In this document: positions 980 through 20,673 of the stretch, piece by piece
How positions within the stretch are numbered: the stretch's first letter is position 1
Layout of the letters: every line of letters starts with the position of its first letter
Source: Syntrophotalea carbinolica DSM 2380
Lineage (GTDB): Bacteria; Desulfobacterota; Desulfuromonadia; Desulfuromonadales; Syntrophotaleaceae
Reading direction: 5' to 3'
Length of the DNA: 64,000 nucleotides
NCBI RefSeq assembly: GCF_000012885.1
Contig: NC_007498.2
Coordinates: forward strand, 2,108,001-2,172,000
Notes under the pieces: model-generated
Seen by the model: the letters and a program-made list of their open reading frames with translations, nothing else
Database searches by the model: none
What the model was told of the DNA's origin: nothing
Program-made: the position numbers and the translations under genes

Positions 980-2809
980 CTACTCCACCGTCACACTCTT
1001 TGCCAAATTCCGCGGTTGGTCAACATCGGTGCCACGCAACACAGCAAAATGATACGCCAGGAGTTGAAGAGGTATCGACGTGAGCACCGGCATGAGTTCA
1101 TCGGCAATTGAGGGGATGGGCAGTACGACATCGGCTTTGCCCTTCAATCCATCATCAGCACAGTCGGTGATCACTACAACCTGCCCGCCGCGTGCCCTCA
1201 CCTCTTCCATATTGGAAAAAACCTTCTCAAAGCTTTCGTTCTGGGTGGCAACCACCACTACCGGCAGCTGATCATCGATCAGGGCAATGGGACCGTGCTT
1301 CATCTCCCCTGCAGGATAGCCCTCGGCATGGATATAGGAGATTTCTTTCAGTTTAAGCGCCCCCTCCAAAGCAATCGGATACTGATTACCGCGCCCAAGG
1401 AAAAGAAAATCGGTGGCCTGCGCATAAATACGCGCAATCTCCTCCATATGTTCACAAGCTGCAAGGGTATCCTGAATTTTTGAGGGAAGCGTTTTCAGAG
1501 CGGCGATTATTGACCCCAGTCGCTCATCCGTCAAGGATTTCCGCGCACGCCCGAGGCGCAGGGCCAAAAGGATGAAGGCTACCAGTTGAGTGGTAAAGGC
1601 TTTGGTCGAGGCAACGCCGATTTCGGGACCGGCGTGGGTATAGATCACCCCATCACTTTCCCGTGCGATGGAAGAGTCAACCACGTTACAAATGGCGACC
1701 GCTTTGCCTTGCTTCCCTTTTGCCTCGCGCAAAGCCGCTAGGGTATCGGCCGTTTCGCCGCTCTGGCTGATCAAAATCGTCAAAGTGCCTTCATCGACGA
1801 TGGGATCACGGTAGCGGAATTCACTGGCGATATCGACCTCGACCGGGACGCGAGCTAGTTTTTCAATCAGAAACTTACCGACCAGAGCCGCATGCCAGGA
1901 TGTACCACAAGCGACCAGGAAGACTTTTCGGAAACTCTGGAGTTCTGCATCACTCAGCCCGAGTCCCTCAAGTACCACGTCGGCCTGATCATCGGGAATG
2001 CGACCAGCAAGGGTATCAGCAATGGCGCGGGGCTGCTCGTAAATCTCTTTGAGCATGAAGTGGCGGTAACCGCCCTTCTCCGCCATGGCCGGGTTCCAGG
2101 TGATGGTCTTTGGCAGGCGGGTGACCGGATTACCTGCGAGATCCATAAGGGTCATGGTATTCCCAGCGAACCAGGCAAGTTCGCCATCCTCGAGAAAGAT
2201 CATCTCACGGGTATGCTTGAGAATCGCCGGGACATCGGAAGCGACAAAGAACTCCTCCTGACCTTGCCCGATTACCAGTGGAGACCCGGATCGGGCTGCG
2301 ACCATCTTGCCCGGTTCCTGTTCGCACAGTACCGCGACAGCGTAGGCACCGCGCACTTCGGTTAAGGTCTTCCGCACAGCGCTGAGAAAGTCTCCGGACT
2401 CCCGATAAAAATCCTCAACCAAATGGGAAATAACTTCGGTGTCGGTATCGGAACTAAATGAATGCCCCTTCTCAATCAATCTATCTCGAAGGTCAAGATA
2501 ATTTTCGATGATGCCATTATGTACGACAACAATCCCATCAGCGCGGTGCGGATGAGCATTCGCGACAGAAGGCCGTCCGTGGGTTGCCCAACGGGTATGG
2601 CCGATGCCACAGCTGCCGCTAACGGGATTACTGGTCAGCAAACGCTCCAGGTTGACAAGTTTTCCTTCGGCGCGAAGGACTTCAATGCCCTTGCCGTTCT
2701 GGGTTGCGATACCGGCGGAGTCGTACCCGCGGTATTCGAGTTTTTTCAACCCATCTATAATAATAGGCGGAGCCTGGCGCGCCCCGACATAGCCGACTAT
2801 GCCACACAT
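980..2809 (-). CDS. glmS: Glutamine--fructose-6-phosphate aminotransferase (isomerizing)
   Basis: GlmS makes glucosamine-6-phosphate from fructose-6-phosphate and glutamine, the first step to UDP-GlcNAc for peptidoglycan and LPS. I chose the start at 2809, which gives [11 protein letters not shown]. The enzyme needs Cys2 as its N-terminal nucleophile after Met removal, so the 23-residue upstream extension in the same frame cannot be right. The 609 aa match the family. Residues 1 to about 240 form the class II glutamine amidotransferase domain ([16 protein letters not shown]). Two SIS domains follow ([18 protein letters not shown], the second near [18 protein letters not shown]), and the C-terminus is LAKSVTVE. 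No glmU or glmM is nearby. No ribozyme-like leader was recognised; upstream is a repeat-rich gap. Confidence 0.97.
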
Positions 2810-2879
2810 AATTTTTCGTTCCCAATCCCAACAAATATTGAATGTAAATTTGTCCGTTGTCAGTGGTAACCAAGACAAC

Positions 2880-3710: not shown

Positions 3711-5114
3711 CTAAACTATCGCAACGGTAGGTATGCTCTCGGATAGACTTTCGGAAACACCAGCAACCCGAGAATAATCACCACATCGACCAATGCCCCA
3801 ATATTCAAACCCCTCAGATTTCATCTCTTTGGGGTCATACTGATTCCGCCCGTCGAAAACAACCGCTTGGCTCATCAACGAGCTCATCACTTTAAAATCT
3901 GGGTGGCGAAACGGTTTCCATTCAGTGACCAGCGCCAATGCATCCACGTCATCCAAAGCATCATACTGATGTTGGCAAAGAACCAAAGCACCCTTTTCAA
4001 ACCAGTCTTTGGGAAGCTCTTGCATAGCTACATCCATTGCCTCGGGATCGTATGCTTTGACCTTGGCGCCGGAATCAATTAACTGCCGCAGCAGCACGAC
4101 AGATGGAGCCTCCCGCATGTCATCCGTACCGGGCTTGAATGCCAGGCCCCAAAGGCCGAATGTCATGCCAGAAAGATCTGATCCAAAACGGGCAACAATT
4201 TTACGGAAGAGAACGTTCTTTTGATCCGCATTGCGCTGATGAACGGCGTTAAGGATCATAGGTTCAAGGTCGTTTTCCTCTGCCATGCTAATTAATGCGT
4301 TGACGTCCTTAGGAAAACATGACCCACCATAACCGCAGCCAGGATAAATAAAAGGGAACCCGATACGCGAATCGGAACCGATGCCTAAGCGAACTTTTTC
4401 TACATCGACCTGTAAAGCATCGCAAAGCCCTGCAATTTCATTCATAAATGAAATTTTGGTAGCAAGCATGGCATTGGCAGCGTACTTGGTCATTTCCGCC
4501 TCACGAACCCCCATCATGACCATACGGTTATGGTTACGGCAGAAATCAGCATAAAGATTACACATGATGTCGCGAGCCTGGTCGCTGTTGCAGCCAATGA
4601 CGATACGGTCGGGCTTCATGAAATCGTCTACGGCAGCCCCCTCCTTGAGAAACTCAGGATTGCTTACCACATCAAAAGCAATATCTACACTACGCTTATC
4701 GAGCTCATCCTGGATCACGGCGGCTACCTTTTCCGCCGTACCTACCGGCACTGTCGACTTGTCGACAATAACAGCATATTTATCCAGACACCGCCCGATC
4801 TCCCGGGCCACGGCCAACACATGGCGCAGATCTGCAGAACCATCTTCACCAGGCGGAGTACCAACGGCAATGAAGTAAACCTGGGAATCGGTCATCGCCT
4901 CGGCCAGAGAGGTGGTGAAACGCAGACGACCATCGGCCAGATTTGAAAGAATCACAGGCTCAAGGCCGGGCTCGTAAATGGGGATCCGCCCCTGATTGAG
5001 ATCCGCTATTTTCTTCTCATCAAGGTCAACACACGTCACATGGTTGCCCATCTCGGCAAAACATGTACCAGTCACCAACCCTACATAGCCAGATCCTATA
5101 ATTGTCAAATTCAT
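3711..5114 (-). CDS. ugd: UDP-glucose 6-dehydrogenase
   Basis: This enzyme oxidises UDP-glucose twice with NAD to UDP-glucuronate for capsule, O-antigen or exopolysaccharide. The start MNLTIIGSGYVGLVTG carries the GxGYVG NAD site. The catalytic cysteine is in GCGYGGSCFPKDV, and GLWGLAFKPGTDDMREAPS is the C-terminal UDP-binding signature. The family normally ends shortly after a GFEYxGIGR motif. Here that motif (EGFEYWGIGR) is followed by about 24 extra residues (CGDYSRVAG and on), and the stop falls right where the galE relic begins. The tail therefore looks like read-through into rearranged DNA. It lies between two epimerase genes on the same strand, consistent with one nucleotide-sugar locus. 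Confidence 0.95.
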   Translation of the reverse strand: MNLTIIGSGYVGLVTGTCFAEMGNHVTCVDLDEKKIADLNQGRIPIYEPGLEPVILSNLADGRLRFTTSLAEAMTDSQVYFIAVGTPPGEDGSADLRHVLAVAREIGRCLDKYAVIVDKSTVPVGTAEKVAAVIQDELDKRSVDIAFDVVSNPEFLKEGAAVDDFMKPDRIVIGCNSDQARDIMCNLYADFCRNHNRMVMMGVREAEMTKYAANAMLATKISFMNEIAGLCDALQVDVEKVRLGIGSDSRIGFPFIYPGCGYGGSCFPKDVNALISMAEENDLEPMILNAVHQRNADQKNVLFRKIVARFGSDLSGMTFGLWGLAFKPGTDDMREAPSVVLLRQLIDSGAKVKAYDPEAMDVAMQELPKDWFEKGALVLCQHQYDALDDVDALALVTEWKPFRHPDFKVMSSLMSQAVVFDGRNQYDPKEMKSEGFEYWGIGRCGDYSRVAGVSESLSESIPTVAIV

Positions 5115-6263: not shown

Positions 6264-6574
6264 TTTACCGCAGAGCACACTGAGAGCGCAGAGACAAGAC
6301 TAGATTTTGTCTTACAACCAAACAACCAAACAACCAACTCCGGGTTTTGCCTCTCTCAGCGACCTCCGCGTTCTCGAGTGAGCGAAGCGAACGGGCGGTA
6401 ACATGCTGTTCAATGGGACGCGGGGCAACCTTAAAACCAAGCCGTTAACCGCAGAGCACGCCGAGAGCGCAGAGTAAAGCTTAGATTTTGCTTTAAAACC
6501 AAACACCGAACTCCGGGCTTTGCCTCCCTCTGCGATCTCCGCGTTCTCGAGTGAGCGAAGCGAACGGGCGGTAA
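6264..6574. repeat. Two copies of a 130-140 bp imperfect palindromic repeat
   Basis: Copy one (about 6264-6402) and copy two (about 6445-6574) both run from accgcagagcac through gagagcgcagag, then a variable centre with aaccaa, then ctccgcgttctcgagtgagc to gaacgggcggta. The two ends are roughly complementary (accgcagag...cgcgtt), so each copy could fold as a long hairpin. This is the cacgaag/cgcagag type of dispersed repeat seen between genes in this group of bacteria. No coding capacity is supported. Confidence 0.7.
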
Positions 6575-7533
6575 AATGCCTTTAAGTCAATTTTTTACTC
6601 TTGCCGCTTCCCCAGCATGTACCGCCTGTAAGCCGCAAGCTGTATTGAATCGAACAAAAGAGATGAAGCATGCAGCTCAAGCATGAAAAATCCGCCAAAC
6701 GACCACACATAAGGCCAGTTCTTCACCGGCCAATATTACCCGTACTGGATGGTTTTGAATCCCTGAATAAAATCCAACGTTGTCTACCCGACAACATAAC
6801 ATCGGGCGAAGATACTCGTTTCCACACCGACTTTCAATTAAATAATTGTAAATTAAGACGTGTTTCCAATCGTTGGACATTTCGCGCATGTTTATCATGG
6901 GTGCAAAGGTTAAGCGCGAGCACTGGATTTGAAATTGTAATGGAAATGCGAAAGGTGGAACAGAAGCGGGAAAGAATGGTCAGGCAGAGCCTGAATGGCG
7001 CTCAACATTAAATTAAATGTATGTAGCATTTCGACGACAGGTTATCAGGTAGCCGCCAGAATTATGGTGTAAGCAGGCAAGCGCCTGTTATCGAATTTTC
7101 AAGGAAAACGCATGGAATAAGCGCCAAAATTGGGTGTCGCAGTGCAGGCAAAAATAACAACGGGAATGCGGAAACAAACGCATCCACCAGTCGCGTCGGA
7201 TTCTTTCAATTTTAGCCCTGCCACAACGTGGACAAACTATACTACGCATCCCCATGGATAACCCTTTCCAAACGACAGCCCATCATGTCTGTTGTGCAAA
7301 ATACCATCAAGCGTTATGTCAAACTAGTGACATCCCTCATAGTCTATGTTGGTATCCTCCCATTGTCAAATTGTTTTTTTACCAATTTAATTAATAAACG
7401 CGCAGCTTTAGTGCATCTCTGTTCCCGCAAAAACCTCCCCTACCAATATCCCATCAACCATTTGAATATGTCATTCAGGAGTCAATTTACCCTCAGGCAA
7501 ACAAAAAGCCCGACCGAAAGGCCGGGCTTTTTC
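6575..7533. other. About 960 bp without a recognisable gene
   Basis: The region between the palindromic repeats and the outer att copy holds only short ORFs (for example a 113-codon plus-strand frame at 6670) that lack a plausible Shine-Dalgarno, family motifs or codon bias. It is locally AT-rich around 7300-7480. It may be decayed DNA at the edge of the island. I see nothing else in it until the hairpin at 7503. Confidence 0.4.
7503..7532 (-). terminator. Intrinsic terminator beside outer att copy
   Basis: Read leftwards the hairpin is AGCCCGgCC-TTTC-GGtCGGGCT followed by a T run. It sits directly after the displaced tmRNA 3' end at 7534-7558. It may be the original tmRNA terminator, carried away from the gene when the elements inserted. 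Confidence 0.75.
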
Positions 7534-7558
7534 AAATGGTGGGGTAGCGGCAATCGAA
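7534..7558 (-). repeat. Outer att copy (displaced tmRNA 3' end, degenerate)
   Basis: The 25 bp starting aaatggtgggg and ending caatcgaa match the tmRNA 3' terminus at 27008-27033 with one deletion and two substitutions. It marks the far end of the stacked tmRNA-integrated elements. Its divergence suggests that it is the oldest junction. Confidence 0.75.
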
Positions 7559-7748
7559 TAATAATATGTTAGAAAGCTGAGCGGCACCAAGCATGTGTTG
7601 CTGACCAATCCCGCCAACATGAGCAACGAGCAATGACGCTGTTTCGCGATCTGCGAACGAGCAGCCTGAAAACGGCACGCACTTGGGCGCTAAAAGGGCC
7701 GCCACGGGCTTGTGGCATTACGTTCAAGGGTTTCTTGACAGTTGCAAT

Positions 7749-8924
7749 TCATAGCTCCCGAAGAACTTCAAGCAGAAAGTCATACCCGACCCTCTCCTGC
7801 TCAAGACGAACGCGATCCCCCCAATGGTTCTGCCGTAATTGGTCGTAAAGGGCGCTTTCGTCCAAGAGTAACCGCGAAAGGGTCCCTGTTTCAGGCTGAG
7901 TTTCAACTCCCCAGAGTGCTCTGTGGGCAAGAAGTGTCTGCTGATCCATGAGAAAAGATACAACATGAGGCAAGAATCCGCGCAATTGGTTAAGAATGGC
8001 AAATCCGTGAGTATCGATGTCCCCCCAATAGTAGATATCTTTCTCGTGCAGCCAAGAGGCCGCAGAGAGATTGTCAAAACCGTATCCCGCCCCGAAAATC
8101 ACCATCGCATCCGAGACATCCGGAAAAGCCAAGAAGTTGATCTCGTTTTCGGTGATGAACACTTTCGATACCGGCAAAGCAAATGAGGCAAAGGCTTCCT
8201 GTGTCAGAGTAATATCTTGACCAGCTTTCACTGGCAGCAAGCGAATATTTGAGTCCAACACTCGAAAACGCACACGTGTGGGTTTATCCAGAAAACCATA
8301 ACGACGGCAGAATCCACCGACGCCTTTGTGTGTTGCGTCAATGGCGGACTCTGGCAAGACAAGATCGAGCAGGTCCGCAAGCACTCCCCGATACTTCTCG
8401 ATAATCTTGCTATGAACACCCGGCAGATCGATCTGGCGCAGATAAATGGCAGGACGAGGGTGTCTGTGCAACCAGTCGACAATCGCAAGGAGCCGCGGCC
8501 AATCTGCGCCCAATTCAAGAGCTCGTAGCGGGCGTTTTCCCAACCAGGAAACCAGTTCGGGCTGTTTCTCTCTCGTCAATTCGACCAACGCAGCAAACTG
8601 CTCCGCCGCTCTGCGTTTGCCGATCAACCCGACTGCGTCCTCAAGGCTGTCGACCCAGATTTTCGAGGGAATTTCATTAGCCCCAAGGACACGGTGGTTG
8701 ATGCAACGCCATTCGATTCGATAGGGACCAGCGGCAGCGGACAACTGGGCGATCCAGTCACGCACCTCGGAAAACCTTTGGCTCAGTTCCTGGGAGTCAG
8801 GGCCTTTGAACGTGAGACGTCTGGGGAAAACCGACTCATCGCCGGACAATGATGCGAGCAGCAAGCCGCGATCCCATAGCTTTTGCACCTGAGCTTTGAG
8901 GTCAGCCGGGGTCGTCCACGTCAT
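7749..8924 (-). CDS. jetD: Wadjet defence protein JetD (Toprim-like nuclease)
   Basis: JetD is the nuclease subunit of Wadjet, the condensin-like system that senses and cleaves circular plasmid DNA. The N-terminal half ([20 protein letters not shown], then [12 protein letters not shown]) fits DUF3322. The C-terminal half fits DUF2220, with the Toprim-like acidic motif [11 protein letters not shown] near residues 298-308 and an upstream ITENE near 257-261. These look like the metal-binding residues, so the enzyme should be active. The 391-aa length is typical. Its ATG overlaps the jetC stop by 4 bp, so the two are translationally coupled. It is the last gene of the operon, 190 bp from the outer att copy. 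Confidence 0.92.
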
Positions 8925-11900
8925 CCTTGCATCCTTTGCTTCTCGTCGCGATATTCCTCAATACTCAGGTTGCGCAGGACAGAGTTGCGACCTTCTTCAC
9001 TGTGAACAAAACCGACACCGGCAACAAAAGGCTCGATGATATGGATTTTCTGCAACGGTGTAACGATCAGCAGTTGCAAATTGAGTTGTGCGAAAAGCTG
9101 CAAACCATACTGAGCCGATTCATCGGAACCCCGTCCGAAAGCCTCGTCGATCACCACGAAGCGGAAAGAGCGCGAACGCACCGATCCCCATTCCAGGCCG
9201 AACTGATACGCCAGACTGGCTGCAAGCACGGTGTAGGCCAGCTTTTCTTTCTGACCACCCGATTTTCCGCCGGAATCTGCATAATGTTCATACTCGGTGT
9301 GGTCTTCACGCCAGCGCTCGCTGGCGGCGAAAACGAACCAGTTGCGCACATCGGTCACCTTGGCCGTCCAGCGCCGATCCAGATCCGAATGTTCTTCCCG
9401 GCCTCGGAACCGCTCGATAATTCGCTTCACCTGCAGGAATTTTGCTTCCGAATACTGGGCATCCTCCGAGCCGGTGAGCGCTCCTTCGGTACAGGTACGC
9501 AACTCGGTCTGGAATTCACGGATATCGGCATCTAGATTCATCTGTGCTTCGAGACTTATATAGCGGCCGGGGTTGTAATCGATCTGGGTGAGTGATTCGT
9601 TGATTTGAGCAATGCGTTCTTTGATGGTTTCCCGTTCGCGTGCCAGCTGAGATTGAAAATTCGCCACCTCTCGGATGGTGTTCTCGTTCAGGAGTTCCTT
9701 GAAACGTCCTTCAAAGCGTGGCAAATCGTCAGCCTTTAGCTGATCCAGCATCGACCGGAACTCGGGAGCGGCAGCTAAATCGGCATCGACATCCTTGGTT
9801 TCCAAACCCCACTGCCCTTTGTATTCGGTCATTGCCTTGATAATGTTTCCGGACAAACGCTTGATCTTCGAAGCTTCGGCATCGATCCTGGCCTGTAACC
9901 AGTCCCGCATATCGCGCTCGCGGTTGTCACAGGATTCAACCGTCAACACCTGATCGCCAAGCGCGTCCTCGCGCATCTCCCCCAACATGGAAAATCGCTG
10001 TACAATCTCTTCGGTTGTTTCCGCCAAAAGGGCTTGAGCCTGTTCCTGCAACTCTTGCGCGAAGCTGATTTTTTCCTCGGTTTTCGAACGCTTATCCTTC
10101 CGCCCATCAAGCTTCTCCTCCGTTTCTTTCAACTCCCCTTCGAGCGCGATCAATTGCGCTGTAAGGGTTTTGAGCAGATCGGAGGCCGCTTCAAGCTCTC
10201 GCTTCTCGGCTTCCAGCCTGGCGATAAAAACCGCCACGGGTTTCCAGTCAAGGTCATGAAAATCGGTGTATTCGCCTAGCTTCGAGAGAACCGAAAGACG
10301 CTCCTTGAGGGCGGCTTGTTCCTTTTGCAGCGTGCTGATGCGACCGGCAAGTTCGGCGAGTTGTGTTTCCTGCCGCTTGGCCTCTTTTTCCAATGCCGCG
10401 ATTTTTTCGGCGTTGCTCCAGCCGAGGACATAGCGACGACGATCATCGAGCCGATGCCGATCATCTTTTTCATGTCTTTCCCCTGGAGCCTTGATCTGCC
10501 CAGCCTTGGTAACGGCACGGGTTTCGCGGCGAAACTGCTCCTGCGACTGACAGCACGCTAAATCAAAGCGATGTGCCACCTCGCGTTCAATCCAATCGTA
10601 AAAGAGCGAATCGGGTTTGACCTGGATCTTGCGCACCAGGGAATCGCGATGAAGCGACGGCAACTCGCCGCGCCCCTTTGCCCGCACGCGGAAATAAACC
10701 AGACGCCCACGCAGATGGGTTTGGTCTACCCACTGCGCTACCTTGGCGTAATGCCGATCAGGAACCAGCAGAGACAAGCCGAAACCGTGAAGCAGACGTT
10801 CAATGGCACCTTCCCAGTCACGCTCATCGTCGCGTACCTTCAGCAGCTCACCGGCAAAAGGCATCTCTTCTTCGACCAGATTCAGGGCCCCACAGAGTGC
10901 GCGCCGCATGGCGATCTGTTTTTCGTCGATATTGCTGACCCGAGCTTTCAGACTTGCGATTTCATTTTGCAGTTGATCGTATTCGTCCTTTCCCTGCTTG
11001 AACAAGACACCTGCTTCATTGAGATTATTCTGCGTGCGGATTTCGGTTTCTTCTGTCGTTTCACGCCAATTGGCGATTTCGGACCGCTGCCGCAGAAATT
11101 CGTCGCAGGTCGTAGCGGGGTATTGGCCCAAAGCACGTACCAGCTCCTCATAGCGGGAGGCTTTTTGCTTGCGACGCTCCAATTCATCCTGTTTCTGGAG
11201 AATTTCCCCGGCGATGCTTTCGATGCGGTCCCCACCATTTTCCGCAATAGTACGGCGAAGATCGCGCTCCTGTCCCTGCTGCTCGCGACGCTGCTCCTCC
11301 AACCGCACGATGACGGTTCGATGTCTGGCCAACTCTTCATTCAGCGAAGTAAGACGTTTCTCCAGCAGATCGATTTTCAGGGTAGCGAACCAGGGGCGCA
11401 AGGCATCACGACACGCTCGAAGATTATCCGCCGTTTGCGCCAGCGTCCGATATCGATCACAATCATCCACCAAGGGCTCTAGCATTTCAACCTGATGCTT
11501 AGCCTTGAGAACCGCCTCATGAGCTCGGTTGAGATCCTCGTAGTGACCGATCAGAGCTGAGATACGTGGTGCAACATCGAAAGGTTCAAGCATGTGGCTG
11601 CGCACGAATTCCGTCAGGTTTCCGACCGACTTGAGGGATACTGTCTGATGAAACAGATCCAGCGCCTGCTCGCTATCGATGCCGAAACGACGGCGAAACC
11701 AGGAACCGTAAGAAGGGAAGCTGTCGAACAACTCGACATGGCTTGCCCGCAGTTGCTTGCGAAGACCGAGAATCTCGCTGCCGAACCCGGAAAAGTCGGC
11801 CATAATGGACAAGTCGCGTTCACAAGCCGCATACAGGCGAGCCGGTTGCGCACCCGCTTCTTTCATCCAGAAGACCTGCGCCAAAGTGACGGTCTTGTTG

Positions 11901-12286
11901 TAACCTGCATTGTGAAAAACACCGAGGATGACCGAGTAACTGTTTAAGTCGCGTAGTGCGACCGGTTTTGCGCTGCCCAGAGTTTCCTGCCGCTCCGATT
12001 TATAAAACCCCAGCACATAGGATCTGAGCGAACGTTCACGACTCTCGGCCCCAGCCGCCTTGTTGTAGGCAACCCGATGACTCGGCACCAGCAGAGTGGT
12101 AACGGCGTCGACCAGGGTCGATTTTCCGGAACCGATATCACCGGTAAGCAGACTGTTTTCCCCGCCCAGGCGCAGTGTCCAGACCCGGCCGTCAAAGGTT
12201 CCCCAGTTAAAAACCTCGAGCCGTTGCAGGCGAAATCCGGCCAAACGATCATCGCCGATAAATTCCAGCTCCAATGTTTCAGACAT
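8921..12286 (-). CDS. jetC: Wadjet defence protein JetC (SMC-like ATPase)
   Basis: JetC is the SMC/MukB-like motor of Wadjet, thought to extrude DNA loops to measure whether a molecule is a small circle. The Walker A motif GDIGSGKST is at residues 49-57. A long coiled coil (roughly 270-960, rich in E, K, R and Q) separates it from the ABC signature [10 protein letters not shown] near 1000-1010 and the Walker [12 protein letters not shown] near 1035-1042. All ATPase motifs are intact. The length of 1121 aa is normal for JetC. The start overlaps the jetB stop by 8 bp. I see no frameshift. Together with jetA, jetB and jetD this gives a full type I set. Confidence 0.94.
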
Positions 12287-12914
12287 CCGTTTCCTCCGGT
12301 GGTTCGGCTATTTGCTGCCGATATTCCGCCAGCCGTTTATCAAAGTCGGCGAGCCATTGAGCATCGACAAACGCCTTGATAATGCGTCGAACCTCAATCA
12401 TCTGCCCCTGCCCCCGCAAGCGGCGAATAAAACCCAGTTCAGCGATCTTGTTCAAGGTAGCGTCGACCTGATCGATGAGTTTTACCTCGTTGCTGCCCGC
12501 CGGAAGAAAAATCCGGACCAACTCCACCACCTCATCCCGAGAAAGAATCAGGCGTGTATCTCCACCGCCAGCGTCGAACTCGGCCAGTTTTTTCCGCAAA
12601 AGGGCAAGCAGCAAACTGACCGGATAGGAGAGCTGCCGCCGGGCAACCAGGCGTGGGATGGCTACCGGAGCATCTTCTTCGTCATCGCGTCGGGAACGCA
12701 AAAAAGCGTACCCCTCTGCCTCGTCGAGCATCAACTCCAGGCCGAGAACGGCGACATAATCCCGAACACTCGCTTGAAGCTTCTGAAGCAAACCCCACAG
12801 CCCTGGGTTATCCTCCCGATAGAGCACACCCTTGAGCAGTGGCACCAGCACAGACGAGAGTTCGTGGAGCGGTTTGGCAAAATAACCCGGATTGGTATCG
12901 GCAACATTCATCAT
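12279..12914 (-). CDS. jetB: Wadjet defence protein JetB (DUF4194, kleisin partner)
   Basis: The 211-aa protein fits DUF4194, the small winged-helix (MukE/KITE-like) subunit of Wadjet that bridges kleisin and motor. The middle carries [21 protein letters not shown] and a [17 protein letters not shown] segment typical of a winged helix. Its first base shares the stop of jetA and its end overlaps the jetC start, so the three genes are translationally coupled. No catalytic residue is expected. The family call rests on both the sequence pattern and the position between a DUF3375 gene and the SMC gene. Confidence 0.9.
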
Positions 12915-14359
12915 CAGTTCCTCAGCAAAATAATGCGTGGCAAAGTCGCCTGACGCATAACGCCAGTCCCCAACTGCCAGCTCACCTTCTCCTGAACCTC
13001 ATCGTCCACGACCGTTTCAGGCCATTCACCTGCCAGCTGCAAATAAGCAACCAGTTCGGCCAATCCGTGACGCAACGGGTGGCGGGTCACCACCTCGGCA
13101 AGGCTGATCTGACTGCGGCCCTGGAGTTCCTGCCGAATATTGCGGGTCAACTCGGCCCGGTCGACCACCACCTGTGCGTAGAGAGCCGCCGTATCCACAT
13201 CCGCGTCCCCTTCATCAAGCGCCATCTCGGTAATGAGAGTTTTAAGCGGAGGCCGGTAAAGAGGTCGTTCCAAGGGAAGTTCGACCGTTGCGGAGGTCTC
13301 TGACAAAGTCGTAAAGCCCCCTGAAGGAACCGCCTCGCGTACCGCCAACGCGTTGTTTTCAATGCTGTGCAGGATATCCATGATGCGGCGATTCTCCAGC
13401 CAGGCCTGATCGTCGAGAAACCTCCGTAGCTGCTCGGAAAGCTTAGCCACCGTTCGTTGGGTGTGTTCTCCAGCTTCCAGCCAGTCGTAATGCACGCGCT
13501 GCAGCCGGGATTCGGGACACATGGCAAGGATCGGCGGAAGGGACAAGACCTGTTCCAGCAGGCGGCTCAACTCTTCCTGCCGGGACTGGGACATCAGAAA
13601 ATCCCAGAAGGCACGAAAGCTTTTCCCCTGGTCGGAATCGGCGATGGCATCGCGCTCGCCCATAATTTCCTCGAGCAGCGCCCCTTTGGATCCATCCCAA
13701 AGGGCAATGCGCTCGCGCACCCGCCGATCGAGAGTTCGGAAATTGTGCTCTACCTCGCGAAAGTCGGTCAGCAGTTCCCGCGCCAGCTGCAAAAACTGCT
13801 GAAAACGATCCTTCAGACCGGTGTCATCCAAAAGCGGAATATCACCCGCCAAAATACGGGCGATCTCCGCGTCAATATCGCTGCGGCGCTTATGCAATTC
13901 AGCGATTCGCACTTGCGGATCAGTCTGGCTCCCCTCACTCATCTGCCGCAACAGCTCAAACAAGGTAAGTAGACGGGATTCAGTGCCGACAAATGCGCGC
14001 TCGGTCAACCCTTCCAGCCAAACCAAAGCCTTCTCCGTCGCTGGAGTCAGATCAAAGTGCGGTTCGTCCGTCCCTGCCGGATAAAATTTCCGCAACCACC
14101 CCTTGTCATTTTCAGCCCAATCGTTGAGATAGCTTTGCGCGGATCCGGGAAAGGCTTCATCCCCCAACTGCTCGCGCAGGGCGAAGAGCTCATCTTCCAG
14201 CGCCTCGACCAGGTCTGCCTGTGGTAGATTTCGAACATTGGGCACGATAAACACCCGGTGCAGAAAACCGGCCACCAGCGGAGCGTGATGAGCACACAAC
14301 AACCGCCAGGCCGGATGGTTCTGGCGGAGCAATTCTAATGTGGCGTAGTCCAGTGCCAT
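12914..14359 (-). CDS. jetA: Wadjet defence protein JetA (DUF3375, kleisin-like)
   Basis: JetA is the kleisin-like subunit that closes the Wadjet motor ring. The N-terminus ALDYATLELLRQNHPAWRLL is the hallmark of DUF3375, and the 481-aa length is typical. A central helical stretch (about 190-290) contains the DIDAEIARI and DRFQQFLQLARELL type heptads expected of the kleisin neck. A GGGGG Shine-Dalgarno lies 5 bp before the ATG. It is the first jet gene and starts 15 bp after the stop of the truncated Fic gene, so transcription must come through that gene. Confidence 0.92.
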   Translation of the reverse strand: MALDYATLELLRQNHPAWRLLCAHHAPLVAGFLHRVFIVPNVRNLPQADLVEALEDELFALREQLGDEAFPGSAQSYLNDWAENDKGWLRKFYPAGTDEPHFDLTPATEKALVWLEGLTERAFVGTESRLLTLFELLRQMSEGSQTDPQVRIAELHKRRSDIDAEIARILAGDIPLLDDTGLKDRFQQFLQLARELLTDFREVEHNFRTLDRRVRERIALWDGSKGALLEEIMGERDAIADSDQGKSFRAFWDFLMSQSRQEELSRLLEQVLSLPPILAMCPESRLQRVHYDWLEAGEHTQRTVAKLSEQLRRFLDDQAWLENRRIMDILHSIENNALAVREAVPSGGFTTLSETSATVELPLERPLYRPPLKTLITEMALDEGDADVDTAALYAQVVVDRAELTRNIRQELQGRSQISLAEVVTRHPLRHGLAELVAYLQLAGEWPETVVDDEVQEKVSWQLGTGVMRQATLPRIILLRN

Positions 14360-14374
14360 AGATTCCCCCAGAAG

Positions 14375-15049
14375 TTATCTTTCTCCATGCTGTACCAGCC
14401 ACTGGCGACCTTTGGCGGTAAGACGGTATTTTTGCAGGCGGCTGTTGGGCTTGTCGGGAAGGGTCATCTCGATTAAGCCATCGGCCAGAGCGGGTTTGAG
14501 GTAGCGCTCGCGGAAGGATTTACGGTCAGAAAGACCCAGGGCGGATTGCAGCGCCTCACGACCCATTTCGCCTTGGATCGTTGTCAGCAACCCGCTGACT
14601 TGGGGGGTGACTTGAGGTCTGACTTGGGGGGCGGAGGTGATCAGAGTATCCAGAATCATCCGCAGCATGAAGGCAATGAAAGGCGCGGAGTCGGTCTGCC
14701 GGGTGCTCTCCTGAATGGCTTGATAATACTCGGCCTGGTGCTCGAAGATCAGGCTTTCCACCGGGAGGCCGGCGAACAGGGCGTTTTTAACTACTTGCAC
14801 CTCGCGAGGCGGTGCGATCACCCGTTTGCCGTCCAGAATTGCGGTGATCTGCGCCTCGCTCAGCGTGTTGCCCTCGATGGCCAGCGAACTATGGATGGTG
14901 CGTACACGGTTGATACGCCGCAGCCGCAAAGCTTTGGCGTTTTCAGCAATAACGGTCAGACGCCCCGTAACTTCGCTGATCTTGGCGATAAAATTTACGA
15001 TGGCCGGAGTAATGGTGTAGGGAGGTTGGTATGGGTGTTGGTTGCTCAT
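14375..15049 (-). pseudogene. Fic-family protein lacking its catalytic core
   Basis: The 224-aa frame is open and starts MSNQHPYQPPYTITP. Its N-terminal 90 residues match the Fic_N region and keep the inhibitory motif [S/T]xxxE[G/N] as S55-LAI-E59-G60. Right after EVQVVKNA (residue 90) the protein jumps to LPVESLIFEHQAEYYQAI, which in intact homologues follows the Fic core by roughly 80-100 residues. The HPFxxGNGR AMP-transfer motif is therefore missing. A C-terminal winged-helix tail (PQVTPQVSGLL repeats, then LTAKGRQWLV) is intact. It cannot AMPylate. It could still bind DNA or act only as a leader gene for jetA. The deletion is in frame. Confidence 0.85.
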
Positions 15050-15088
15050 GGGAATCAACCCTTTTCCCAATCCATGCGGAAAGTGAGG

Positions 15089-15122
15089 AAAGCCGGACTG
15101 CTGAGAACAGTCCGGCTTTTTT
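15089..15122. terminator. Intrinsic terminator beside middle att copy
   Basis: AGCCGGACTG-CTGAGAA-CAGTCCGGCT is a perfect 10-bp stem with six T after it on the plus strand; leftwards only TTT follows. It sits between the middle att copy and the Fic relic, about 40 bp upstream of the relic ATG. It should block transcription entering the Wadjet operon from the neighbouring element, at least partly. Confidence 0.75.
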
Positions 15123-15148
15123 AAATGGTGGAGGTGGCGGGAATCGAA
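15123..15148 (-). repeat. Middle att copy (exact tmRNA 3' end)
   Basis: The 26 bp from aaatggtggagg to gggaatcgaa are identical to 27008-27033, the tmRNA acceptor end and T-arm half. Homology stops abruptly on both sides. This is the expected attachment-site duplication left by a tyrosine integrase acting on the tmRNA gene. Confidence 0.92.
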
Positions 15149-15673
15149 TAATTATCGCAAGGTCTTGTTTTCCCTACCCTTTTTGCGATTTATAAAAATA
15201 TCGTATACTCACGCCTATACCCATAAAAATACGTGAAAATCGAAATCACACCGACGTCCGATTTCTTAATATTACCCATATCCGAGCCACATAACAAGGC
15301 AGAAAAAATCTCCCCCAGGTGGTAGTCATGAATTCTATGCGGTGTTTTTCTGGTCGTCTCACCCCACGTTCCAAAAATGGCAACTGGTTCCATTTGGCAA
15401 CCTCAAAACTGGAACCGTTCCAGATCCACGTTCCAGCCGCAAAACCGCACCAGTTCTATATTTGGTAAACTTTTACCATATCTGGCAACAGTAAAATGGC
15501 ACCCTCAAAAATCGACCTGTATCTAGCTAAAAGCCGGGCCTCCGCGTCTACCCCCGGCTTAGACGCTAGAAAGAACCTACGGCAAATCCGCAGGCCACTT
15601 GAGTTCGTCATGAAATGCGATATTAAATATCTCTGAGCTTTTACTTTATGGTTACTGAACAGGAGGTATATCA
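15149..15673. other. Non-coding att-proximal region with short repeats
   Basis: Five copies of gttcca or its complement tggaac lie at 15368, 15387, 15410, 15417 and 15430. A perfect palindrome TGGTAAA-ct-TTTACCA spans 15463-15478. Several tttggcaac/aaatggcaac words are interspersed. A hairpin agccggg...ccccggct follows at about 15532-15560. These could be integrase arm sites or operators. A 67-codon minus frame at 15190 looks spurious. Confidence 0.5.
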
Positions 15674-16045
15674 GTGCATTTTTCAGTGAAGGTGAAGAGC
15701 AGCGACCCAGACAGGCACTATTTGGTTGAGGTGATTAGGCGGAATGAATTGCTGAGGGTGTCTTGTACTTGCCGAGCCGGGGAGCTTGGACAGATGTGCA
15801 AGCACAAAAATGCTATTCTGCGCGGGGATGCGTCGATACTGGTTGACCAGGGAGATGAGGAGGAAATGATCCACGCCCTACAGGTTGTCAATAAAACTGT
15901 TATCCCTGCAAAGCTGGCTGATCTTGACCGCAGATTAAATGAAATCGAGAAGGAAAAGAAACGGATAAACTCTCAATTCAACGCTAAAGCAAAAGAGTTA
16001 AAAAAAGAGTTTGCTGCAGTGCTTTTCGGGGCGCCGGCGAGATAG
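15674..16045 (+). CDS. Small SWIM-type zinc-finger protein
   Basis: The 123-aa protein begins at a GTG 7 bp after a strong AGGAGGT. SCTCRAG...CKHKNAILRG fits the CxCx(n)CxH SWIM zinc finger (residues about 33-53). A charged C-terminal coiled coil (LADLDRRLNEIEKEKKRIN, then AKELKKEF) follows. SWIM domains bind DNA or protein. It is the only gene of the element on the plus strand, pointing away from the att end, which is typical for an accessory or cargo gene. Its role is unknown; a regulator or a defence or counter-defence cargo are both possible. Confidence 0.7.
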   Translation: MHFSVKVKSSDPDRHYLVEVIRRNELLRVSCTCRAGELGQMCKHKNAILRGDASILVDQGDEEEMIHALQVVNKTVIPAKLADLDRRLNEIEKEKKRINSQFNAKAKELKKEFAAVLFGAPAR

Positions 16046-16053
16046 GCGCCATG

Positions 16054-16551
16054 CTACATCTCCTGATCCGGCGTATCTGTCGGGCCGCCGCTGTCGTTTT
16101 CAGGATGTTTGTGGCTGTTGTAAATATCACGGTCGGCCGCCATAGTCCTCACGCCATCGTAAATATCCCCGGTAACGTGCAGGTCTGCATCTATGTCCAC
16201 CCGCGTGGCTCCGGTTATCGCCACGGTTTTACCTGCCAGCAGCTTAATCACCACACCTTCGGAGTTATACAGACAGGACTCGCCTGGATCGAGGTGCGGA
16301 CGGTATCTGCCATCGTCAACAGATACCGCTATGCCATGGCTGCGGTCGCCACCGGGGAAAACAACTGCTGCCTGCGCACCAGGTAGCGGAACCGCGCAAT
16401 GGCCGAACTGCTGAAAATACTGGATGGCGCCGCGCAGTTCATCGGTGAGCAGAGATACTTGAAGCTCCTGTATCTTCGGACCATCGTTAACAGCACGCAC
16501 CACAGCCCGCCCGATCATGAGCATGACGCGATGAGTAATGGAGCGCTGCAT
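16054..16551 (-). CDS. Mu gp45-like baseplate spike protein
   Basis: The core from KIQELQVSLLTDELRGAIQYFQQFGHCAVPLPGAQ through GEVV-type IKLLAGKTVAITGATRVDID to DLHVTGDIYDG matches the phage Mu gp45 / baseplate assembly V family, which forms the membrane-piercing spike. The AVVFPGGDRSHGIAV segment is also typical. I chose the ATG at 16551 (MQRSITHRVMLMIGR, 165 aa) because the longer in-frame extension has no Shine-Dalgarno. In Mu this gene follows gene P; here the P homologue is 1.2 kb upstream with three small genes between. No downstream tail genes follow, so the module is truncated. Confidence 0.75.
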   Translation of the reverse strand: MQRSITHRVMLMIGRAVVRAVNDGPKIQELQVSLLTDELRGAIQYFQQFGHCAVPLPGAQAAVVFPGGDRSHGIAVSVDDGRYRPHLDPGESCLYNSEGVVIKLLAGKTVAITGATRVDIDADLHVTGDIYDGVRTMAADRDIYNSHKHPENDSGGPTDTPDQEM

Positions 16552-16615
16552 TTTCCGTACGAAAGTTATCATGGGAATATTGTGCGATAGGCGAGACAGG
16601 CTCCGCAACCCATGA

Positions 16616-16649
16616 GGAAAAAAGCCCCGCAGTATCACACCACGGGGCT
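16616..16649 (-). terminator. Intrinsic terminator
   Basis: Read leftwards: AGCCCCG, a 13-nt loop, CGGGGCT, then TTTTT. It lies after the small gene 16678-16881 and before the gp45-like gene. Confidence 0.7.
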
Positions 16650-16677
16650 CAGTCCTTTTGATTCTGACATTTATCGA

Positions 16678-16881
16678 TCACCCACCCAACTCAGCCATAG
16701 CGGCACAGACCGGACAAAACTCACCATCACCAGTGCAGGTGCAGCGATCTGCTTGCGTTCTCTCGATATATTCCAGCATGGCCGCGCTCAGATCGGCGGG
16801 CCTTAATTCGAATTTCTCGACAGCTTGAACGATGGTTTTAACGGCGGGGGCGATGTTGGCAGGTACGGAAACTTGGTGCAT
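16678..16881 (-). CDS. Small Cys-rich element protein, unknown
   Basis: The 67-aa product starts MHQVSVPANIAPAVKT after AAAGGATC at good spacing. The C-terminal part holds CTCTGDGEFCPVC, four cysteines in the pattern CxC...CxxC, likely a small zinc site. I do not recognise the family. It sits among small genes between the two Mu-like tail genes and ends just before a terminator. Confidence 0.55.
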   Translation of the reverse strand: MHQVSVPANIAPAVKTIVQAVEKFELRPADLSAAMLEYIERTQADRCTCTGDGEFCPVCAAMAELGG

Positions 16882-17091
16882 TGTGAAGATCCTTTCAATG
16901 GTGAGAAGTTATAAAAACTTACCGGAAAGAATTACCGTGCGCCAACCATACGCCCAGCATTATTCAGCGTCAAGGAAAAAAATGCTTATTTTTCATGCAC
17001 TTACTGTGAACGGCTGGACCACTTAATGTGAACTATCGGGAATGCTTGCGGAATTTTCACGTTTTGGAGGGAATTTCACGTGAAAAAAGTT

Positions 17092-17292
17092 TCAGGATGG
17101 GTCGGGAATGTCTGCCAGAATGCGCTCGATGATGATTGACGGCGTGGTGGCTTCGCTGGTAGCGAGCCGTTTTAATTTTTCTGCGGCATCGATGGGCAAG
17201 GAAATTTCAACCCTGCGGTGGGTGTCGGACTTGCGTTTGCGGTGTTCAGCTACACATTCGGCTGCGGTGTCGTGTTTCCGTTTTCGGGCCAT
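17092..17292 (-). CDS. Small ribbon-helix-helix-like protein
   Basis: The start at 17292 (MARKRKHDTAAECV, 66 aa) has CCGGAGGAG 7 bp upstream, better than the longer frame. After a basic N-terminus comes RRVEISLPIDAAEKLKRLATSEATTPSIIIERIL, which fits a ribbon-helix-helix DNA-binding fold (one beta strand, then two helices). It may regulate element genes. The palindrome TTTCACGTGAAA at about 17077-17088 lies directly downstream. Confidence 0.6.
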   Translation of the reverse strand: MARKRKHDTAAECVAEHRKRKSDTHRRVEISLPIDAAEKLKRLATSEATTPSIIIERILADIPDPS

Positions 17293-17336
17293 GGGTATCT
17301 CCTCCGGATGTGGTTTCTGTTGAGATTGTAGCATAA

Positions 17337-17371
17337 AGAAAGGCCCCCGGAAAAACCAGGGGCCATTCTGC
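17337..17371 (-). terminator. Intrinsic terminator
   Basis: Read leftwards: GGCCCCtGG-TTTTT-CCgGGGGCC followed by TTTCTTT. It separates the 93-aa gene from the ribbon-helix-helix gene. Confidence 0.7.
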
Positions 17372-17493
17372 CCATCGCGGAACGGAGAGAAGGTCCGGTA
17401 ACGCTCCCATGGGCTCTACAGGGTTATTCCACGCGGCACTCCTGTAGTTGCCGCGTCCCGCCCGATGCTCACGGATGGCGGGATTATCGTAAG

Positions 17494-17775
17494 TTATTGC
17501 GCCAGGTGCAAACGGTCCACCGTCAACTCCAGCCCCTTGCCGACCTTGGCAGATGGCTTGAACCCGAACAGCAGCACGGGTTTTCCGCGCCAGGTGAACA
17601 GGGTCGTCCCGTCATCCTGTGTTTCGAGTTTTCCGAAGTCGGATGGATCGATGTCTGCATTGACTCCTTCGATCTGCAAGATCGCTGCGGCGGCCTCGGT
17701 CTGCATCTCACTCTGCAAGCGGCCTCTTTCACGAAAAAATACGCTGTCAAGTTCGTTGTATGTTTTATGTGCCAT
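17494..17775 (-). CDS. Small element protein, unknown
   Basis: The 93-aa product starts MAHKTYNELDSVFFRERGRL after CGAGGAGATC. It is slightly acidic with a C-terminal beta-rich part (GTTLFTWRGKPVLLFGF). No family was recognised. It follows the Mu P-like gene by 20 bp on the same strand and may be a minor tail or baseplate component by position only. Confidence 0.6.
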   Translation of the reverse strand: MAHKTYNELDSVFFRERGRLQSEMQTEAAAAILQIEGVNADIDPSDFGKLETQDDGTTLFTWRGKPVLLFGFKPSAKVGKGLELTVDRLHLAQ

Positions 17776-17795
17776 GTAGATCTCCTCGGTTCGGG

Positions 17796-18848
17796 TCAGA
17801 TTAATGCCAACGGGTCCAGATCTTCGGGCACAGTCGGTTTCGGTATAAAGGCATCCGGCCTCCGCAGCGTCAGTGTGGTCTGCGTCCCCGATTCATCCAG
17901 CGTGTGGGTCAACTCCGTTATCAGCATATCCCCAGACAGTCGCAGCCACGGCAGATCGACATTCACCAGTGCATTGACCGGCCACAACTCCCCATTGCCC
18001 TGTCGCCATCCCTGAACTGTCACCTGTGCTGATACGGCCCTAGCGGCTCTGACAGTCGCCTCCCATTGGGCGCGTTTTTTCGCTGCGGCGATATCAACGG
18101 AGTTTTCCGGAAGAACAATCAAGGTCCGGCCAGAGGGTACTCCCACGTCGCTGGCGCGGCCATCTACTGCAAACGCCTGTTCAGGGGCAATAAAATCGGT
18201 ACTCGGTTGACTGCCACGGACGACATACGTGCGGAAACGGTCGATGATGTCGTCAATCAGGCTGGCAGATTTCACATTCTGGCCCTGGATTAATGCAGTG
18301 CTACATCTGGTTTTCCCCGGCCTAGTTAGTATCAAGCCACCTTGACCATCAGAAACAGGCAGAACCCCGCAGAAACGGCAATGCCGGTCCAATGCCTCGA
18401 AAGAGGTTTCGCCTGGTTGAATTTTAACCAACTGGATAGGAGCGCCGGTATCGACTTCGGTTTTAACCGAGATTCCGAACGGCTCTGCCAGAATCGCGGC
18501 CAGACGTTCAAGCCTGATGTTTGCCCAATCGCCAGGGCTATGAACTGCCGAACAGTCCACCATCTGGCCGGTTCGGTCGCGGCCACTGGCGCTGTTCGTA
18601 TGGCTGTTCGCGTCGTAGCGCGGGGCGATCGAGTCAACCCGCCCTGTGATAACGGTATCGTCGCCGATCTTTACGGTACACTCAGCGCCTGGCAGTATCG
18701 GCCATGGCGTGTCTTGCCCCTGCCAGCGATCGGTAAGACCGAGTGAAAACCTGCCGGATATGGCTTCAATGCTGCGGGTGATCGATATGCTGGTCCAGCC
18801 CTGGTATATTCGGCCACCAGTGGTGAGTTTTACAATCTCAGATCCCAT
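17796..18848 (-). CDS. Mu gene P-like baseplate hub protein
   Basis: The 350-aa protein (MGSEIVKLTTGGRIYQGW) resembles Mu gp44 (P) and the gpD-like baseplate hub proteins of contractile phage tails. The N-terminal ISITRSIEAISGRFSLGLTDRW, then GDDTVITGRVDSIAPRYDA, and CSAVHSPGDWANIRLERLAAILAEPFGI are characteristic, as is FEALDRHCRFCGVLPVSDGQGGLILTRPG. A GGAGGAG precedes the ATG. The hub sits at the tail tip and carries the spike encoded by the gp45-like gene at 16054. The main tail sheath, tube and tape measure genes that normally precede it are absent. Confidence 0.82.
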   Translation of the reverse strand: MGSEIVKLTTGGRIYQGWTSISITRSIEAISGRFSLGLTDRWQGQDTPWPILPGAECTVKIGDDTVITGRVDSIAPRYDANSHTNSASGRDRTGQMVDCSAVHSPGDWANIRLERLAAILAEPFGISVKTEVDTGAPIQLVKIQPGETSFEALDRHCRFCGVLPVSDGQGGLILTRPGKTRCSTALIQGQNVKSASLIDDIIDRFRTYVVRGSQPSTDFIAPEQAFAVDGRASDVGVPSGRTLIVLPENSVDIAAAKKRAQWEATVRAARAVSAQVTVQGWRQGNGELWPVNALVNVDLPWLRLSGDMLITELTHTLDESGTQTTLTLRRPDAFIPKPTVPEDLDPLALI

Positions 18849-18895
18849 GTCTCCTCCAAGGGTGGGGCCAGTCCGCAGACCGGCCCCCGGTTAAT

Positions 18896-19495
18896 TTACG
18901 CGAGATATTCTGCCTCGATGGCAGTGGTGGCTGCTTCACGTTTGCCGGATGCCTGGTCAATGGCCTTGGTCAACGCGGCAACAAGATCCTGCCGGCCAAA
19001 TCCGTCGATTGCCTTGCGGAGCACCGCTTCCAATCGGGCCAGACCGGGCACCAACTCGGCGGTGATCGATGCCACCTCGACACGGCGCACGGCGTCCCAC
19101 AATGCGGCCTCTGCGGTGGGGATTGCCGTTTCCGACTCGGTAATGGTGACCTGCAGCGCGTCGATTTCATCGTCGGTGACATTCAACAGCGTCCGCGTTG
19201 CATCCAGCTCGGTTTCTGCTGCATCGGCATCGCTCTGTGCGGCTGACAGGTCGTCGGCGATTTCCTCGGCAGTTGAGAGGCCTTTGACCTGTCGGCGAGC
19301 AAGGCCGGTTTTTGTCTCACTCGCCGATGCGGCCAGCTTCGCGGCGGTATTGCGACGCTCGACAAGTTCGCCACGACGGACCCGCAGGTCGGTCAGCGAA
19401 GCGGTTGCTGTGTCACGGCTGGTTTTGAGGTCGGCAAGGGCGGTCTGTGCTTCGGTGATGTTGTCCTGCAATCTCTTTTTTTTCTCTGCGTTCAT
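18896..19495 (-). CDS. Coiled-coil element protein, unknown
   Basis: The 199-aa product starts MNAEKKKRLQDNITEAQTAL after AAAGGAAAC. Heptads run almost end to end (ADLKTSRDTATASLTDLRVRRGELVERR; AAQSDADAAETELDATRTLLNVTDDEIDAL). It is Ala-rich and lacks Cys and Trp-rich motifs apart from one W. It lies 26 bp after the S49 protease gene, where phages often keep a scaffold or decoration protein, but I recognise no family. Confidence 0.65.
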   Translation of the reverse strand: MNAEKKKRLQDNITEAQTALADLKTSRDTATASLTDLRVRRGELVERRNTAAKLAASASETKTGLARRQVKGLSTAEEIADDLSAAQSDADAAETELDATRTLLNVTDDEIDALQVTITESETAIPTAEAALWDAVRRVEVASITAELVPGLARLEAVLRKAIDGFGRQDLVAALTKAIDQASGKREAATTAIEAEYLA

Positions 19496-19521
19496 TGTGC
19501 CGTTTCCTTTCGTTGTAAGTG

Positions 19522-20673
19522 TTATGCCTCGGGTCCGTAGATCCGTGCTGCGATTGCTGCGAGCCGGTCTTTCTCGACTACGACATGGCTGCTCTGCGCT
19601 GCGGGCGGCTGCTGTTCCTGCGGCTGTTCCTCGACGGTCTGGGTATATTCCTGCCGGGTCTTTTCGCGCTTGAAGTAGGCATCTGCGGCGATTTTATCGA
19701 AACTCGCGGCTGCGGGCTCTTTCGCCGTCAACAACTCGGCATCCTTCCGGGCCTGTGAACCGAACATGGCCCGCTCGCTCTCGGTGGCTTTATCGATGGC
19801 GATGGCCGGTTCTGCTGCCTCCATGCGGAGCGGGGTGCTGCTACCCCCTGATCCGGACAGATACCTGTCCACGGCTGCGACCTGATCGGCCAGACCTGCC
19901 GCCACAGCCTTGGAGCCGATGTAAATACAGGCCTCAGTCTTTCTGACGGCCTCGGCACTCATGTTGCGGTTGCGGGAGACGGTCGAGACAAACAACGAAT
20001 ATGTTTCATTAACCATCCCCTGCAAGCGGGTCTTTGCTTCCTCGCTCAAGGCGTGATGCGGCGAAAAATCAGCCTTGTGTGCGCCAGCGAAAATATGCGT
20101 AACCGCAAGGCCGTTTTTCTCGTTGAACCCGCTCTGATCCACATGTGCCAAGATGACCCCAATGGACCCGGCCCCACCAGTGCGGGGGAGGATAATCTTG
20201 TCGGCAGCACTGGCCAAGGCATACGCGGCGCTGTAGCAGGACTCATTCACCACAGCGGTTATCGGCTTTTTGCCTCGGCTCTGGTAGATATGGTCTGCCA
20301 GGTCGAAACAACCGGTAACTTCACCGCCAGGGGAATCAACATCGAAGATGATCCGGCGCACGGCGTCATCCTCAAGGGCCAGGTCGAAAGAACTCCGCAG
20401 GGATTCATAACTGCTTAAACCGCTGAGAGCGTCGAGGTATCCCGATTTGTGAACCAACGTACCCTGAATGCCGATGATAGCGGTCCCGTTGCGCACCACG
20501 TACCCGGCACGGTTTCGCTCGGATTCGGCAACCTCTCGCGCCTCGATGGCTGGCAGGTTATCCAGGTCCAGGTCGAAGCGTGGGCCAAGCACGTGCAACA
20601 GCACGTTTAATTTTTCTTCGGCGATCATCAAGGGCGTGTTGAATATCCGCCCGGCGAATTTTGCGTTTTTCAT
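19522..20673 (-). CDS. S49 family serine peptidase (SppA/protein C-like)
   Basis: The 383-aa product (MKNAKFAGRIFNTPLMIAEE) has the phage minor capsid protein C / SppA fold. FDVDSPGGEV is near residues 110-119, the nucleophile is Ser148 in NESCYSAAYALASAADKI, and Lys200 in FAGAHKADFSP fits the catalytic lysine of the S49 dyad. After residue 270 comes a low-complexity Q/E/P-rich tail (EEQPQEQQPPAAQ). In lambda-like and Mu-like phages this enzyme processes the prohead with a scaffold. Here no portal or capsid gene accompanies it, so its present substrate is unclear. It keeps its catalytic residues. Confidence 0.85.
   Translation of the reverse strand: MKNAKFAGRIFNTPLMIAEEKLNVLLHVLGPRFDLDLDNLPAIEAREVAESERNRAGYVVRNGTAIIGIQGTLVHKSGYLDALSGLSSYESLRSSFDLALEDDAVRRIIFDVDSPGGEVTGCFDLADHIYQSRGKKPITAVVNESCYSAAYALASAADKIILPRTGGAGSIGVILAHVDQSGFNEKNGLAVTHIFAGAHKADFSPHHALSEEAKTRLQGMVNETYSLFVSTVSRNRNMSAEAVRKTEACIYIGSKAVAAGLADQVAAVDRYLSGSGGSSTPLRMEAAEPAIAIDKATESERAMFGSQARKDAELLTAKEPAAASFDKIAADAYFKREKTRQEYTQTVEEQPQEQQPPAAQSSHVVVEKDRLAAIAARIYGPEA

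Follow-up and report, generated by a model that had tools for sequence, protein, structure and literature searches.

A type I Wadjet operon in a probable eroded defence island at the tmRNA gene of Syntrophotalea carbinolica

The jetABCD genes form an intact type I Wadjet operon

The window analysed here is a stretch of 64,000 nucleotides from S. carbinolica DSM 2380, of the order Desulfuromonadales, whose genome is a single contig of 3,665,893 bases. The tmRNA gene is followed downstream by two layers of DNA, an outer layer (15149-27010) and an inner layer (7559-15125) that contains the Wadjet genes, and each layer ends at a copy of the tmRNA 3' end. The features are as follows.

27011-27368, minus strand: intact tmRNA gene, the integration target (ARAGORN; Rfam 226 bits)
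25571-26863, minus strand: tmRNA-proximal tyrosine integrase, 430 aa (Arm-DNA-bind_3, Phage_int_M, Phage_integrase)
15149-27010, minus strand: outer layer, a putative younger prophage- or satellite-like element with integrase, primase-like, head protease and baseplate hub genes (Pfam, PHROGs)
15126-15148, minus strand: exact copy of the last 23 nt of the tmRNA (23/23), the bound between the two layers
14375-15070, minus strand: SoFic-like Fic gene, 231 aa (Pfam Fic-like_C 3.2e-28; PADLOC SoFic 7.2e-7)
12914-14359, minus strand: jetA (DUF3375), 481 aa (Pfam DUF3375 2.1e-161; PADLOC JetA1 2.8e-228)
12279-12914, minus strand: jetB (DUF4194, MukE-like), 211 aa (Pfam DUF4194 2.5e-49; PADLOC JetB1 2.4e-92)
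8921-12286, minus strand: jetC (SMC ATPase), 1121 aa (AAA_29 8e-24, SbcC_Walker_B 2.2e-23; PADLOC JetC1 E=0)
7749-8924, minus strand: jetD (DUF3322 + JetD_C, Toprim nuclease), 391 aa (DUF3322 2.5e-62, JetD_C 7.8e-60; PADLOC JetD1 3.5e-153)
7577-7725, plus strand: ISL3-family transposase remnant, 89% identical to two other places in the genome, one within a 411-aa DDE_Tnp_ISL3 protein
7537-7558, minus strand: decayed copy of the tmRNA 3' end (20/23 columns, one gap), the distal bound

Pfam and PADLOC profiles bear out an earlier note on this DNA, made from the sequence alone, which had described a complete type I Wadjet operon of overlapping DUF3375-DUF4194-SMC-DUF3322/2220 genes with intact motifs. 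The operon (7749-14359) lies entirely on the minus strand, its genes have the order DUF3375, DUF4194, SMC, DUF3322/JetD_C that type I systems require, and the overlaps from jetA to jetD are 1, 8 and 4 nt; the few type II and type III Jet models listed by PADLOC are all at 1.9e-8 or weaker against the type I best. In the JetC translation the Walker A, signature and Walker B motifs of the ATPase are intact, VVIDEAF included, and the protein matches solved JetC chains at 3e-67. Solved MksG and JetD chains are relatives of the window JetD, and when the catalytic residues are aligned it keeps both the glutamate at the position mutated in the solved chain JetD(E248A) and YWGDxD, so that the Toprim catalytic acidic residues expected of a type I system are present. 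Relative to G004, from the same order, protein identity is 92.5% for JetA, 86.6% for JetB, 89.2% for JetC and 80.8% for JetD, and third codon positions hold 70, 68, 70 and 60% of the nucleotide differences from jetA to jetD; with 60-70% of the differences at these positions, jetABCD is under constraint.

The likeness to known type I Wadjet systems (JetABCD; also MksBEFG and EptABCD) thus covers gene order, the four families, and the ATPase and JetD motifs, and the operon itself shows no difference from them; only its setting differs, in that a Fic-derived gene precedes jetA by 15 bp. JetABCD is described as cutting circular DNA below about 50-100 kb, with JetD probably kept inhibited until the circle has been extruded by the SMC motor (PMC10586767). 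Nothing in the window sequence appears to point to a mechanism other than this published one. The window operon is predicted to work as the other type I members do: JetABC would extrude DNA, and JetD, set free on small closed circles, would cut, with loss of plasmids.

Copies of the tmRNA 3' end bound two layers of DNA

The segment 7559-15125 has copies of the target site at both ends, as the earlier note had recognised, one exact and one decayed. Taken alone the decayed copy is weak, its score of 16 being reached by 17 of 300 random sequences; a 140-bp junction around 15126, compared with the 14 kb beyond, finds 7505-7565 with a score of 35, against a null maximum of 23 (0 of 300). The copies at 7537 and 15126 have in common the element-side flank ATWATTATTCGATT, where the tmRNA differs, and this common flank suggests that an integrase of similar specificity probably acted at 7537 in the past. 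The 62 bp from the copy at 7537 are 81% identical to the tmRNA end and flank of G007, 22 bp of this being the tmRNA end itself; the distal copy may therefore be the ancestral flank, with 7559-27010 consisting entirely of inserted DNA. A hairpin lies 3' of each of the three tmRNA ends (z of -5.4, -7.4 and -7.5); scanning 14300-15250 for consensus terminators gave no match, so the middle hairpin is without a proper T run. The site is commonly occupied in tandem: of the 22 tmRNA stretches compared, which range from 2.7 to 40 kb, five (G000, G004, G024, G032 and G036) have exact extra copies of the last 20 nt farther downstream in the same orientation.

Nine PF00589 matches are present in the genome, and the sole one near the tmRNA sits in the outer layer. 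With PF00589 as the single profile searched, none lies within 7537-15148, in agreement with the earlier description of a segment without an integrase. Beside the integrase of the outer element, a 71-aa frame (24911-25126, minus strand) looks AlpA-like by eye.

The inner layer carries a deleted Fic gene and an insertion sequence remnant

The jet genes make up most of the inner layer, although not quite to the extent implied by the earlier note, which had the operon as nearly the whole content; the Fic-derived gene and the ISL3 remnant are also inside. The fic gene stops 15 bp before jetA, a spacing also seen in G004, G015, L103 and L126 (68 bp in L147). In comparison with intact relatives, the window Fic is without about 115 residues, including HPFADGNGR, through an in-frame deletion with CCCTG common to both ends. 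A chimera of a G007-like start and a G004-like end was also considered; the N-terminal part has 78% DNA identity to G004 and 66% to G007, and we set this reading aside because the in-frame deletion with CCCTG at both ends fits better. The gene is a relative of SoFic, a single-gene Fic defence in PADLOC, but the window copy has no Fic core and matches at 7.2e-7 only, whereas the intact Fic of L126, a protein identical to that of G004, matches SoFic at 8.3e-41. Activity of the window Fic has presumably been lost.

We clustered 13 Fic proteins, of which ten are encoded in tmRNA stretches and three in jet loci; nine of them keep the motif HPFxxGNGR, which is absent from the window copy. Breakpoints differ among the four motif-less proteins (window, G003, G025 and G035), and the deletion in G035 breaks the frame; the intact Fic of L099 falls outside the cluster and keeps the motif. 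Two of the four motif-less tmRNA-linked genes have an in-frame loss with the N- and C-terminal parts retained. Across the order, Fic-like_C occurs in 31 of 136 genomes. At the other end of the inner layer the ISL3 remnant is within 20 bp of the decayed repeat. With the Fic core deleted and an insertion sequence remnant beside a decayed repeat, the layer is, to judge from its sequence, eroded.

jetABCD lies near the tmRNA gene in several relatives

DUF3375 is found at E<=1e-20 in 29 of the 136 genomes of the order. We set the jet positions against tmRNA matches, which are listed for 98 of the 136 genomes, most relatives being drafts; jet and tmRNA are on one contig in 9 of the 29 jet genomes and on different contigs in 16, and four have no listed tmRNA match. 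In five genomes from three families jetA is 4-33 kb downstream of the tmRNA on the same strand (4.0 kb in G035, 5.7 kb in G015, 12.7 kb in G000, 18.1 kb in G070 and 32.8 kb in G004), and in four it is farther away (52 kb in G080, 97 kb for a fragment in G120, and hundreds of kb in G026 and G077). The nearest PF00589 match in G070 is about 63 kb from jet.

G015 and G035, which belong to another family of the same order, have fic and jetABCD 3-6 kb from the tmRNA. Neither has a PF00589 match on its tmRNA-jet contig (the whole genome of G015 has two, and a second jet operon lies on another of its contigs), and the search for a second tmRNA 3' copy was negative over 39 kb of G015 and over the 28.8 kb to the contig end of G035. 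This search covered G004, G015 and G035, with thresholds of 15 in the first 20 kb and 16 beyond; these equal or barely undercut what the decayed copy of the window scores, so that a more decayed copy would have escaped it. The tmRNA of G004 is separated from a second tmRNA copy by 26 kb of DNA with two integrases, fic-jet lies beyond that copy, and there is no tmRNA copy in the 20 kb after jet. The window and G004 are alike in having their integrases in a separate tmRNA-proximal element. A tblastn search with the window integrase finds nothing at E<=1e-8 in the G004, G015 and G035 stretches, and when seven stretches of tmRNA-proximal DNA from relatives were searched with three integrases for hidden remnants, the lowest tblastn E was 0.24, with no credible match.

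jet varies as a block beside fic

The earlier note had proposed comparing related genomes for presence or absence of the whole segment as a unit. What varies is a smaller block, jet itself, whose edges are fic and other genes, without tmRNA copies at the edges. G015 and G035 have fic, then jetABCD, then a gene for a 121-aa protein; G006, G017 and L099 have fic followed by the 121-aa gene with no jet between, and L099 afterwards has a fic fragment and jetA. Similarly, G004 has fic, jet and a Na/Ca exchanger gene, and G003 a fic remnant and partial exchanger without jet. Among these relatives the whole of jet is either there or missing with the same genes on either side, so that the turnover is real. 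Other island cargo includes a BsuBI/PstI-type restriction-modification pair, RhuM, MazG-like, Schlafen-group helicase and zeta-toxin-like proteins. A stretch of ~34 bp with repeated GCGACA/TGTGACA units recurs at the edges of these modules, right after the fic stop in G006, G003, G017 and L099, and after a RhuM gene in G004.

Fic was rejected as a fixed partner of Wadjet, adjoining jetA in only 5 of the best 80 loci (of 540), one of them a fragment. On a quick-method JetA tree of 86 rows with many weak forks, the state could be assigned for 77 rows, with fic beside jetA in 8, and this distribution calls for a minimum of four changes; G004 and L126 are near-duplicates, and L099 is scored positive on a fragment. 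The pairing may be ancestral with later losses. A further suggestion, which we regard as doubtful, is that Wadjet operons of different lineages would be swapped as whole blocks at a recurrent slot, namely the 3' end of the SoFic-like genes of tmRNA islands, by recombination between common island genes rather than by an integrase.

Wadjet loci beyond the order

Named jet loci are the best 80 of 540 relatives, and many are short, making their tmRNA-linked counts a minimum. Among these 80, two Chlorobiaceae contigs have jetA 1.2 kb (L142) and 0.7 kb (L146) downstream of the tmRNA, with no further tmRNA copies in 21 kb; in both (8369-16611 in L142, 8867-16611 in L146) jetABCD begins about 1 kb past the tmRNA without fic or repeat copies. 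The tmRNA of L141 is 7 kb away and oppositely oriented, L108 is the locus of G015, and L126 resembles the G004 locus, with a tmRNA 3'-end copy and no whole tmRNA in its stretch. L103 has a tmRNA-like 3' end (4423-4449) about 5.6 kb upstream of another fic-jet pair, where ARAGORN finds no tmRNA gene. Also among the best 80 of 540, JetA is 91% identical to that of a Marinobacterium-labelled MAG versus 79% to Pelovirga of the same order, which we take as a sign of horizontal movement.

Neither phages nor plasmids are indicated as known carriers. A JetC relative occurs in 1 of 50,697 phage records, at 30.5% identity, and 12 of 72,556 plasmid records match some portion of 7500-15200, but coverage at a single place never reaches 80%; a Thiodictyon plasmid comes closest (62% covered at 69.8%).

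Origin of the island

The locus is probably best explained as a chromosomal type I Wadjet operon in an old, eroded defence island at the tmRNA site, displaced by a later integrase-bearing element. Reading the order of insertion from the anatomy, an earlier island without recognisable mobility genes would have left the inner layer, with its Fic remnant, jetABCD and ISL3 remnant; a younger prophage- or satellite-like element would then have integrated by its own tyrosine integrase, leaving the tmRNA whole and pushing 7559-15125 away from it. The intact, constrained type I genes, the sole nearby PF00589 match in the outer layer, the erosion of the inner layer and the block variation of jet all favour this reading, as do the same layering in G004 and the fic-jet pairs near the tmRNA without an outer layer in G015 and G035. 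On account of that layering and those pairs, the exact repeat at 15126 most plausibly marks the distal end of the younger element. Against an eroded island stand the tmRNA copies with a common element-side flank on both sides, as in a former integrative unit; moreover, integrase absence is judged from PF00589, the relatives are mostly drafts, the second-copy scan covered G004, G015 and G035, and no empty site of the species was seen.

The same flank is what favours the earlier note's proposal that the immunity travels as a passenger of a neighbour's integrase. In its explicit form, 7537-15148 would be a compact non-autonomous element moved in trans through common att sites, having no PF00589 integrase of its own and an intact-looking one next door. 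This we consider improbable, although the flank common to both bounds leaves it a small chance. The distal copy has three differences, and an insertion sequence remnant and the Fic deletion lie inside the segment. The earlier note had itself named jetABCD at the same place without att repeats as the finding that would speak against a passenger, and G015 (5.7 kb) and G035 (4.0 kb) are of this kind, with jetABCD near the tmRNA and neither PF00589 on the contig nor a second copy; in the window and G004, the integrases belong to a separate element. The passenger reading is therefore unsupported.

Quite unlikely, too, is a composite element in which 7559-27010 came in as one and can exit by its outermost copies, at 27011 and 7537, with the 15126 copy lying inside. 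Such an element would account for the same flank at both inner bounds and for the resemblance of the outermost copy to the G007 tmRNA flank, but G004, G015 and G035 lack the outer element of the window (integrase tblastn-negative, E<=1e-8) and have fic-jet by the tmRNA or by a separate copy of its end. That the genes are another SMC system (MksBEF/MukBEF or Lamassu) is hardly credible: JetB has a secondary Pfam match to MksE (3.5e-20) and JetC a weak PADLOC match to LmuB (1.1e-13), but all four proteins, JetD included, fit type I Jet models best by wide margins, which disposes of the other-family outcome that the earlier note had put to a profile search.

Wadjet at a hotspot flanked by ssrA is already published for Pseudomonas aeruginosa, and the window operon is mostly ordinary. 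The core defence hotspot cDHS2 at ssrA is reported to hold Wadjet in its variable stretch, with Druantia and Wadjet given as roughly 25% of the immune systems there (PMC10250203). The likeness is Wadjet in variable DNA flanked by the tmRNA gene; the window differs from the hotspot as described in being from another phylum and in having layers marked by tmRNA 3' copies. For E. coli, the tmRNA is described as a landing site for many elements, and Wadjet carriers as favouring another hotspot (PMC10121019). As a weak indication that the pair is absent from print, titles and abstract openings of literature on Wadjet with tmRNA, Fic, SoFic, or islands and integrase describe no fic-jet pair.

The locus clearly shows that a tmRNA landing site can house anti-plasmid immunity in bacteria other than Pseudomonas, and it suggests a layering of the site in which younger integrase-bearing elements displace older defence genes, which then decay. 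It also cautions that a segment bounded by att copies need not be a mobile unit. Two small questions open to testing are why jet comes and goes as a block beside fic and why the Fic core has been lost repeatedly.

Surroundings of the island

The window also encodes a GlmS-like protein (SIS and glutamine amidotransferase; 980-2878, minus strand), with a second copy in the genome at 69% identity. We tried the flanking glmS as a synteny marker and rejected it, its best matches in relatives being on non-tmRNA contigs or far from the tmRNA, so that it defines no empty site. An Rfam 'pan' motif (40.3 bits) lies at 32761-32848 on the minus strand, and just outside the island, at 6264-6579, there are intergenic direct repeats of 83 nt at 92% and 66 nt at 82%.
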